From positions 1 to 64,000 of IMG/VR virus record IMGVR_UViG_3300047553_000334: a stretch of 64,000 nucleotides of DNA, one strand, 5' to 3'. Under the pieces are notes generated by a model. It was not told the origin of the DNA. It saw nothing but the letters and a program-made list of their open reading frames with translations, and ran no database searches. This document shows, piece by piece, positions 36,343 through 41,913 of this stretch. Position numbers and translations under genes: made by a program. Numbering within the stretch: the stretch's first letter is position 1; the number at the start of each line of letters is the position of its first letter. Source of the stretch: a virus.

Positions 36343-36371
36343 GTGCGTTGTTGGTGAGACGCACCCCTCAC
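36343..36371 (-). promoter_or_regulatory. H-type RNA pseudoknot, copy A (5' UTR)
   Basis: Minus-strand RNA order: GUGAG (S1), GG, GUGCGU (S2), CUCAC (S1), CAACA, ACGCAC (S2). S1 is 5 bp, S2 is 6 bp, loop 1 is 2 nt and loop 3 is 5 nt, which is sterically ideal for an H-type fold. It ends about 14 nt before the ribosome site of the 36321 gene. Copies B and C keep the fold with covarying pairs. Confidence 0.8.
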
Positions 36372-36884: not shown

Positions 36885-36913
36885 ATGCGTTGTTAGTGAG
36901 ACGCATCCCTCAC
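36885..36913 (-). promoter_or_regulatory. H-type RNA pseudoknot, copy B (5' UTR)
   Basis: Minus-strand order: GUGAG, GG, AUGCGU, CUCAC, UAACA, ACGCAU. Compared with copy A, one S2 pair changes from G-C to A-U on both sides, so pairing is preserved. Loop lengths are identical. It lies between the stop at 36922 and the 36864 gene. Confidence 0.8.
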
Positions 36914-38690: not shown

Positions 38691-38914
38691 AGTTCACTCC
38701 TAAGTTTGTTTACCAACATACCAACGGGATTCTGCATTTTCTCAGCAGCGTGTGCCCCAAATCTGAGGATATCCTCATCATTGAGGTTGTTAAACCCAGA
38801 CATAGCTTCGTTTACGTAGTCCTCTTGGGAGTATTGTGCCCAGAGGAGAATGTCTGTGTCATACATCCACAGTACGTACGTCTTTATCGCGTCTAACGCT
38901 TGCTCTCTTGTCAT
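38687..38914 (-). CDS. Hypothetical protein
   Basis: A 75-aa helical protein, coupled on both sides by ATGA overlaps. No recognised domain. Confidence 0.55.
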   Translation of the reverse strand: MTREQALDAIKTYVLWMYDTDILLWAQYSQEDYVNEAMSGFNNLNDEDILRFGAHAAEKMQNPVGMLVNKLRSEL

Positions 38915-39120
38915 TTGATACCTAACCTTTTGTTTTTGCGTGTCTCACGATCGTCGTGAAACGTCTCGACGAGAAGTGTGTCAAGCTCCTCAACAAGTTG
39001 TCTAAGATGATTCTCCGGCGCTGGAAAAGTCACCCCATGTAATCGATATGTTTTATGCATAGCGCTTGAGACCTCAGCGATCTTGGCTTGCAGCTCATTG
39101 ATTCTTTGTTGATTTTTCAT
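38911..39120 (-). CDS. Small coiled-coil protein downstream of a ribozyme
   Basis: A 69-aa protein with a helical coiled coil (QQRINELQAKIAEVSSAM) and a basic end. I place the start at 39120: the longer open frame would overlap the upstream gene and the ribozyme. GGA lies 8 nt upstream. A type II hammerhead ends 20 nt before it. No family recognised. Confidence 0.5.
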   Translation of the reverse strand: MKNQQRINELQAKIAEVSSAMHKTYRLHGVTFPAPENHLRQLVEELDTLLVETFHDDRETRKNKRLGIK

Positions 39121-39140
39121 GGTTTGTATCCATATGACCT

Positions 39141-39200
39141 GACTCATCAGTGCAAGGCGGTCAACTCTTACAGACTTCTCCGCATGGGAGAAGTTTCGTC
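39141..39200 (-). ncRNA. Hammerhead ribozyme, type II (HHR-b)
   Basis: Minus-strand order: GAC, GAAA (39197-39194), a 7-bp stem III hairpin CUUCUCC / GGAGAAG (39193-39175), UC, a 6-bp stem I hairpin UGUAAG / CUUGCA (39172-39151, one G-U pair), CUGAUGA (39150-39144), GUC. All invariant core bases are present. Cleavage falls after the C at 39173. Stem II is open, 3 bp (GAC/GUC), perhaps longer through an internal loop. It begins right after the stop codon of the 39201 gene. Confidence 0.85.
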
Positions 39201-39653
39201 TTACAAGAGTCCGGTTGCTTCCATACTCTTGAACACCTGCAAGTGGTAGATGCTCCGGTATGTGCCGTACCACATGTGGAAGCCACAGTTCTTGATCGTC
39301 AACAACACATCCTTCTTGAATGGGAAGTTGTGCTCAGGTTGTACGACCTTAGCCTCCTTGCCAGTATGGGCAAAGAACATGGCGTTGATTTGCTCTGCCT
39401 CATCACGGTCAATGAAGAGGCAAAGCATCTGCTCTTTGCTGTCCTTCTCCATAGTGACAACATACTCACCGTCTGTTGTCTGGAGAACGTACGGCCACTG
39501 GGGGAAGTCAAGCATCTCATTGACATCGATGTTGTTCTCATCGGCATACTCGCGTACGCAAAGATGGAAGTTAGTCATCTCTTTCTTGACCTCCTTGGCA
39601 AGCCAAGCGGTTTCGATACGTTTGATCAGATTAGGTTTCTTGTTTGTTTTCAT
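39201..39653 (-). CDS. Hypothetical protein
   Basis: A 150-aa protein with a basic helical N-terminus and a mixed alpha/beta body containing HMWYGTYRSIYHLQ near the end. Only 9 nt separate it from the Csx16-like gene. Its stop codon abuts the type II hammerhead. No family recognised. Confidence 0.6.
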   Translation of the reverse strand: MKTNKKPNLIKRIETAWLAKEVKKEMTNFHLCVREYADENNIDVNEMLDFPQWPYVLQTTDGEYVVTMEKDSKEQMLCLFIDRDEAEQINAMFFAHTGKEAKVVQPEHNFPFKKDVLLTIKNCGFHMWYGTYRSIYHLQVFKSMEATGLL

Positions 39654-39662
39654 TTGTTTCTC

Positions 39663-39992
39663 CTAGTAGTAATTGACACCGACTTCGTCGCGGATGTCGT
39701 TCCATGCCTCAATAGTCATGACTTTGTAACCAACGAGGCTTGCACCGCACTGATCCATTTGCTCTGGAGTCAGCTCCTTGCCTCGCAGTTCCAATGGCAG
39801 GTTAGGTAAATCCACCGACCACACCTCACGGGCATGGCAGGCGAGGTGCATCGGGATGACACCGATGACCTTGCGTCCTCGCATCAGGTCAGGTGTTGCG
39901 TGGGCAACGACTGTTACATCCGGGCTAACGTGCCCGTGCAGTACTAGCCATTGCACCAAGCCAATATGTCGAGAGATAACTATTGTTTCCAT
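39663..39992 (-). CDS. Csx16-like (VVA1548 family) protein, candidate ring nuclease
   Basis: A 109-aa protein, close to the Csx16 family length. I chose the ATG at 39992 over the long upstream extension, which would run through a pseudoknot. Visible family landmarks are IVISRHIGLVQW (4-15), KVIGVIPMHLA (about 41-51) and LPLELRGKELTPEQM (about 65-79), in the same order as Csx16/VVA1548 proteins. Csx16 is a type III CRISPR-linked family proposed to degrade cyclic oligoadenylate messengers. In a phage such a protein would blunt type III immunity, as DUF1874/AcrIII-1 does. The leader holds a hammerhead and a pseudoknot. Family assignment is by pattern; the activity is inference. Confidence 0.75.
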   Translation of the reverse strand: METIVISRHIGLVQWLVLHGHVSPDVTVVAHATPDLMRGRKVIGVIPMHLACHAREVWSVDLPNLPLELRGKELTPEQMDQCGASLVGYKVMTIEAWNDIRDEVGVNYY

Positions 39993-40020: not shown

Positions 40021-40052
40021 ATGCGTTGTTCACCGAGTCGCACCCCTCGGTG
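40021..40052 (-). promoter_or_regulatory. H-type RNA pseudoknot, copy C (5' UTR of Csx16-like gene)
   Basis: Minus-strand order: CACCGAG, GG, GUGCGA, CUCGGUG, AACA, ACGCAU. S1 grows to 7 bp with a new sequence, while the GG loop, the AACA loop and the S2 pairing (4 Watson-Crick plus G-U) are kept. It ends about 15 nt before the AAGGAAAC ribosome site of the Csx16-like gene. Confidence 0.78.
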
Positions 40053-40125
40053 AGTGAGATATGGCCACGTTGGCACCACTCACTCGGTCAATGCGGTTAC
40101 GCCTCTTCGTAACCTGTGATATCTG

Positions 40126-40182
40126 ACGTGTTTCGGCGTGACTGCCTCATCAGCCTATAGGAATCACCCTATAGGTACACGT
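40126..40182 (-). ncRNA. Hammerhead ribozyme, type III (HHR-a)
   Basis: Minus-strand order: ACGUG (stem III, 40182-40178), UA, an 8-bp stem I CCUAUAGG / CCUAUAGG with loop GUGAUU, CUGAUGA (40153-40147), a 3-bp stem II GGC / GCC with loop AGUCAC, GAAA (40134-40131), CACGU (stem III). Every invariant core base is present. Cleavage is after the A at 40176. Loops I and II are complementary (GUGA/UCAC), fitting the known loop-loop contact. It lies in the leader of the Csx16-like gene. Confidence 0.9.
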
Positions 40183-40589: not shown

Positions 40590-40647
40590 ACGTGTTTCGC
40601 CTAGACTGGCCTCGTCAGCTCATTGCCATCACACAATGAGGACACGT
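40590..40647 (-). ncRNA. Hammerhead ribozyme, type III (HHR-c)
   Basis: Minus-strand order: ACGUG (stem III), UC, a 7-bp stem I CUCAUUG / CAAUGAG with loop UGUGAUGG, CUGACGA (variable position 7 = C), stem II GGCC...GGC, GAAA, CACGU. Stem III is identical to that of HHR-a. Stem II needs one bulged G to pair (GCC/GGC next to the loop AGUCUA), the only deviation. It lies between the terminator at 40658-40673 and the 40561 gene. Confidence 0.75.
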
Positions 40648-41724: not shown

Positions 41725-41753
41725 TTGCTACAATCAGCTGGTTTAGATATACT
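41725..41753 (+). promoter_or_regulatory. Promoter for the tRNA-Asn operon
   Basis: TTGCTA (-35, 41725-41730), a 17-bp spacer, and TATACT (-10, 41748-41753), a good host-type sigma-70 layout. Transcription would start near 41760, just before the tRNA at 41764. The -10 region overlaps a copy of the TACGGTAT motif at 41749-41761, which could be an operator. Confidence 0.65.
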
Positions 41754-41763
41754 TACGGTATGA

Positions 41764-41835
41764 TCCTACTTAGCTCAGCGGTAGAGCGTCCGGCTGTTAA
41801 CCGGATGGTCGCTGGTTCGATCCCAGCAGTAGGAG
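41764..41835 (+). tRNA. tRNA-Asn (GTT)
   Basis: 72 nt. Acceptor TCCTACT / AGTAGGA is fully paired. The anticodon stem TCCGG / CCGGA holds loop CTGTTAA with anticodon GTT at 41796-41798. The T arm GCTGG-TTCGATC-CCAGC is perfect. CCA is not encoded. It is transcribed from the promoter at 41725-41753. Confidence 0.95.
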
Positions 41836-41913
41836 TCCCCCATGTATGTAAACGCACTGGGGATAGCGTTGCACCCTGTGGTCCTTTCTCTTTCTCCTGC
41901 AGGGTGTAGCGTT

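Follow-up and report, generated by a model that had tools for sequence, protein, structure and literature searches.

We consider it likely that the minus strand of a viral DNA stretch carries a functional type II hammerhead ribozyme that cuts the mRNA during transcription, separating the messages of two neighboring genes and leaving the upstream message with a hairpin at its 3' end. The 64,000-nucleotide stretch analyzed here (the window) comes from an IMG/VR virus record of 65,874 bases. This reading draws on the sequence, a structure backed by covariation, and positional conservation, and takes cleavage and the resulting RNA ends from hammerhead chemistry. A first-pass annotation, made from the sequence alone, had placed a type II hammerhead with intact CUGAUGA, GAAA, and GUC core segments at 39200 to 39141 on the minus strand, which reads GACGAAACUUCUCCCAUGCGGAGAAGUCUGUAAGAGUUGACCGCCUUGCACUGAUGAGUC, and this placement was confirmed in sequence, coordinates, and strand. 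The closed stem I (UGUAAG/CUUGCA) and open stem II (GAC/GUC) that it described were also recovered by a descriptor scan. Stem III is a closed hairpin as annotated (CUUCUCC/GGAGAAG), but at 8 bp it is one A-U pair longer than had been counted. Stem I comprises 6 bp, including one G-U pair, and is closed by a 10-nt loop. Because the UAA stop of gene 39201-39653 occupies 39203-39201, the ribozyme starts directly after that stop codon, in agreement with the annotation. A 5-bp pseudoknot between loop I and the 3' tail (39163-39159 with 39139-39135) had escaped the first reading; such pairing is possible in the majority of type II hammerheads according to Perreault et al. (PMC3088659). The parts of the element and its surroundings are listed in the table.

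Table. Hammerhead elements, their parts, and neighboring genes in the window
Feature	Coordinates	Strand	Basis or remark
Variant type III hammerhead-like element, predicted cut 40641^40640	about 40592..40647	-	CUGACGA core, irregular stem II
Type III hammerhead with GUA as cleavage triplet; cut predicted at 40176^40175	40126..40182	-	Descriptor match, 9/3/6 bp
Csx16-like small gene between type III and type II hammerheads	39663-39992	-	PF09652 Cas_VVA1548/Csx16, E 3.4e-17
Upstream gene, 150 aa	39201..39653	-	Orthologues 43-65% identical directly upstream of ribozyme in G001-G004
Type II hammerhead ribozyme, whole element without pseudoknot tail	39141..39200	-	RF02276, descriptor scan, seven aligned copies
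Stem II first strand, GAC	39198..39200	-	Pairs with GUC 39143-39141; invariant in seven copies
Core GAAA (G12-A15.1)	39194..39197	-	Invariant in seven copies
Stem III hairpin, ACUUCUCC-CAUGC-GGAGAAGU, 8 bp	39174..39194	-	None of the 8 pairs varies across seven copies
Predicted cleavage site between C17 (39173) and U1.1 (39172)	39172..39173	-	GUC triplet at core-defined position; inference
Stem I hairpin, UGUAAG-AGUUGACCGC-CUUGCA	39151..39172	-	Two pairs show compensatory AU/GC changes among relatives
Pseudoknot strand UGACC in loop I	39159..39163	-	Pairs with GGUCA 39139-39135; double-sided changes at two pairs among relatives
Core CUGAUGA	39144..39150	-	Invariant in seven copies
Stem II second strand, GUC	39141..39143	-	Invariant in seven copies
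Pseudoknot strand GGUCA in 3' tail	39135..39139	-	Covaries with loop I: GACC/GGUC versus AGCC/GGCU
Downstream gene, 69 aa, start at 39120	38911..39120	-	G001-G004 orthologues align from about there

Membership in the type II class is supported by an Rfam score, the core, the three stems, the pseudoknot, positional conservation, and covariation. The Rfam comparison proposed by the first-pass annotation gave RF02276 at 37.5 bits over 39133-39201, only just above the gathering threshold of 37 bits (E = 5e-4 for the window and 1.2e-7 in a search of the whole record), and a fast-filter gathering run missed the match that the slower run scored. The conserved core (CUGANGA, GAAA, and NUH) is present and invariant in seven copies, and the 5-bp pseudoknot fits the length of approximately 4 bp or more that is typical of the class, although not universal in it. 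The descriptor scan found closed stems I and III with an open stem II, and covariation lends weight to stem I; since stems II and III show zero variation across the seven copies, covariation backs stem I and the pseudoknot only, and the invariant stems are consistent with the assignment. When hammerhead types I to III were sought across the window with the same descriptor, two matches were obtained, with 18 and 17 paired bases, whereas 60 dinucleotide shuffles yielded three weaker matches in total (mean, 0.05 each; best, 14 paired bases), and a chance match for the 39200-39141 element is excluded.

Comparison with related viruses indicates that the element has been maintained at this position. 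A DNA search found no similar DNA among phage records, and a viral-contig scan with the 150-aa upstream protein found no relative; relatives were gathered via terminase, and the four nearest long ones are designated G001 to G004 (the window's record is G000). In all four, a type II element is flanked by orthologues of the two genes that border it here. The more distant terminase relatives lack the upstream gene and, except for one (G024), lack a type II match. In G024, two type II matches were observed on the minus strand of L224 (3524-3591 and 4288-4357; 33.3 and 32.6 bits); because their stems differ and the orthologous upstream gene is missing, an independent gain is suggested. A motif scan added four further contigs with the element directly after a stop codon, bringing the set to seven distinct sequences, which align readily and follow UAA, UGA, or UAG with an overlap of at most 1 base. 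Both sides change together at two pairs of stem I and at two of the pseudoknot; the latter two are among four pseudoknot pairs that persist in all seven copies. In total, 12 cells changed on both sides compared with 5.3 in shuffles (none of 500 shuffles was as high), and the signal was lost when the pairing was slid by one to three columns. Over its 60 nt, the element differs between G000 and G001 by only a single insertion and a single substitution, and the surrounding 1,573-nt alignment, at 68% identity, is less conserved than the element. On this comparative evidence, the structure is kept by selection.

The ribozyme lies within the leftward gene cluster of a tailed phage, on the coding strand of this cluster, whose products include a DnaB-like helicase. 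A strong terminator-like hairpin is located at 41016-40986, upstream of all three hammerheads, and the intergenic gaps from 40986 to the ribozyme yielded no terminator-like site on the minus strand. The upstream protein had zero family matches in Pfam or PHROGs. The downstream gene has GGA 8 nt ahead of its AUG at 39120; a start codon within CUGAUGA (39147) was considered and rejected, as orthologues start near the position of 39120, and in-frame core AUGs across the survey described below are about as frequent as chance predicts.

Stems III and I would form in the emerging message, and the 3-bp stem II would be held in place by the pseudoknot between loop I and the tail. Self-cleavage between 39173 and 39172 would then place genes 39201-39653 and 38911-39120 on separate messages; a cut between these genes, as the first-pass annotation anticipated, would follow from the position of the element and known chemistry. 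The upstream message would end 28 nt past its stop codon with the GAAA strand, the 8-bp hairpin, and a 2',3'-cyclic phosphate, and the downstream message would begin about 50 nt ahead of its start codon, bearing a 5'-OH and the hairpin of stem I, the type II layout being the reason for a hairpin on both sides of the cut. Together with the two upstream type III elements, the ribozyme would divide the cluster into two-gene messages, the predicted cuts at 40641^40640, 40176^40175, and 39173^39172 lying 23, 39, and 28 nt, respectively, past the preceding stop codons. The benefit would presumably be message separation and end protection. Tandem phage and prophage hammerheads cleave in vitro, and a triple from Agrobacterium also does so in vivo (PMC3088659).

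The position of type II elements flush with stop codons appears to extend beyond this group of viruses. A strict type II DNA pattern matched at least 120 stretches in viral contigs, and stop codons were surveyed in the 80 viral loci kept among the matches listed (125 type II copies). The element began at -1 or 0 from a stop codon in 42% of these copies (random positions, 1.3%) and between -3 and +3 nt in 66% (random positions in the same contigs, 4.1%), although part of this adjacency may stem from packing, because the random-position control ignores compaction of intergenic gaps. After removal of identical copies, 78 of 123 (63%) lay within 3 nt of a stop, a count that also takes in loci of a parallel type III scan; under a stricter ORF rule, adjacency was found for 63/123 type II copies versus 1/41 type III copies (p = 1.6e-9). 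No statement of this adjacency was found in the literature consulted, which was mostly outside subscription journals, and we do not claim novelty for it; it is the part of this work that deserves follow-up. Pseudoknots of 4 bp were present in 26 of the 125 copies compared with 17.5 for shuffled tails, and since this excess is small, the pseudoknot proposed here rests on the orthologues. Two further generalizations were abandoned: a rule that cuts avoid the ribosome footprint (for type II it reduces to geometry, and type III is not clean, with 5 of 41 at 10-18 nt) and the idea that upstream genes are mainly anti-defense (1 of 97 matches ArdA, and the others are mostly unknown).

Among other explanations for the element, a role in sensing translation is unlikely. 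A ribosome at the abutting stop codon would cover GACGAAAC and the base of stem III and so delay folding, such that cutting would report on upstream translation. The stop codon touches stem II in this and the remaining aligned copies, which between them use three different stop codons, and 63-66% of surveyed type II elements lie within 3 nt of a stop, while type III elements almost never do. Packing alone could account for this, however, as a gap of 12-30 nt before the next ORF start is common and the order of stop, ribozyme, ribosome-binding site, and start may be mere compaction. It is quite unlikely that the stem III hairpin acts mainly as a 3'-end or protein-binding signal that the ribozyme just exposes. 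None of its eight pairs varies, in contrast to the freely changing stem I and loop I, but seven copies from close relatives may simply not have diverged there, and the 17-mer was found elsewhere only in unrelated contexts, with no independent signal seen.

Release of a segment of approximately 1 kb (40175-39173, carrying the Csx16-like gene and gene 39201-39653) by a pair of hammerheads, followed by circularization by a host RtcB-type ligase, would offer a benefit other than message separation. Two same-strand hammerheads do bracket this segment, and RNA ends bearing a 5'-OH and a cyclic phosphate are substrates of RtcB. We regard this scenario as very unlikely, as a family search returned no RtcB or RNA_ligase matches in G000-G004 and relatives without the Csx16-like gene still keep the ribozymes. 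In addition, Perreault et al. sought spliced or circular products of tandem hammerheads and found none (PMC3088659). It is extremely improbable that the element arose as a chance match or survives as a relic that has decayed or lost its activity. Stem I is bulged in two of the seven copies (G001 and G003), and thermodynamic models prefer another fold: a nearest-neighbor calculation without the pseudoknot favors a CUGA/UCAG hairpin (-23.3 versus -15.7 kcal/mol). This competing fold is weak counter-evidence, because 42% of the surveyed type II copies, among the matches listed, behave alike, with almost no stem II in such models. Decay or chance is also difficult to reconcile with a core that is the same in all seven distinct copies, compensatory base changes affecting stem I and the pseudoknot, conservation above that of the flanks, and shuffles that yield nothing similar. 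Message cutting by an active ribozyme thus remains the preferred reading. Whether it can be generalized is more doubtful: phage type II hammerheads might be a standard "stop-and-cut" device, set flush after the stop so that the upstream message would end in the stem III hairpin about 24-30 nt beyond it, clear of the terminating ribosome, and the device would take the place of a terminator without stopping transcription of the next gene. Stop adjacency across many phage contigs in any case provides a concrete hypothesis for the frequency of type II hammerheads in phages.

The first-pass annotation had also counted two type III copies, of which one is canonical and the other is an irregular variant. 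The 40182-40126 element has the core, closed stems I and II, and an open stem III, with homologous copies in G001, G002, and G004; since it matches RF00008 (Hammerhead_3) weakly, at 16 bits against a gathering threshold of 48.5, it is type III by structure and not a scored member of that family. The element at about 40647-40592 has a stem III (ACGUGU/ACACGU) and a stem I (CUCAUUG/CAAUGAG) and gives a 25-bit cross-match to RF02276, but it fails the strict descriptor because its stem II carries an extra G, an irregularity common to the G001 copy. The observation that one phage carries two topologies is correct. This arrangement is neither unusual nor new, because a 2011 study already described type II hammerheads and hammerhead clusters flanking genes of phages (PMC3088659), and matches to the type II pattern are frequent among viral contigs. 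Perreault et al. marked hammerhead types in clusters around prophage genes (PMC3088659), a 2017 review noted that different hammerhead motifs are often near one another, flanking small ORFs (PMC6155905), and mixed types occurred in 9 of 160 surveyed viral stretches among the matches listed.

Novelty is accordingly low: the element adds a well-conserved member to a ribozyme class already known, and its kind of setting is known as well. It resembles Hammerhead_II (RF02276; PMC3088659) in part order, core, short stem II, closed stems I and III, pseudoknot, and phage context, and differs in scoring just over the cut-off and in a stem III sequence specific to this phage group. The three same-strand hammerheads bracketing small genes recall the ardA triple of Agrobacterium tumefaciens (PMC3088659), although that triple lies in a prophage, whereas the present one is on a free virus contig and brackets genes of unknown function plus one Csx16-like gene. 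The HHphage ribozyme of haloviruses HF1 and HF2 likewise sits just upstream of a start codon in an early-gene transcript of a lytic virus, where a transcript 5' end has been mapped no more than 3 nt from the cut (PMC3088659), but it is a core variant, unlike the standard core of the window's element. The function of prokaryotic hammerheads has been called an open question (PMC6155905), and this well-conserved locus, its parts now mapped, is a case that can be tested.

Other features of the region were observed. The Csx16-like gene is missing from all four relatives G001-G004, and its protein scored below the cut-off of NCBIfam TIGR02620. Because Csx16 is a cA4-specific ring nuclease, found in only two of 28,114 phage genomes (PMC12409355), the product may be a viral ring nuclease directed against type III CRISPR. 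The tRNA region at 41745-41836 is 93-96% identical to that of G002-G004, with nearby DNA at 70-84%. An intergenic RNA element is repeated on the minus strand at 36344-36371, 36886-36913, and 40022-40053 and can be folded as an H-type pseudoknot, with a GUGAG/CUCAC or UCACCGAG/CUCGGUGA stem around GGGUGCG, whose UGCG pairs with a downstream CGCA. It had zero Rfam matches and is possibly an undescribed phage cis-regulatory RNA. One or two copies are present in each of G001-G004, a pattern search found it in 58 viral stretches, and it also occurs in terminase relatives that have no type II hammerhead match.
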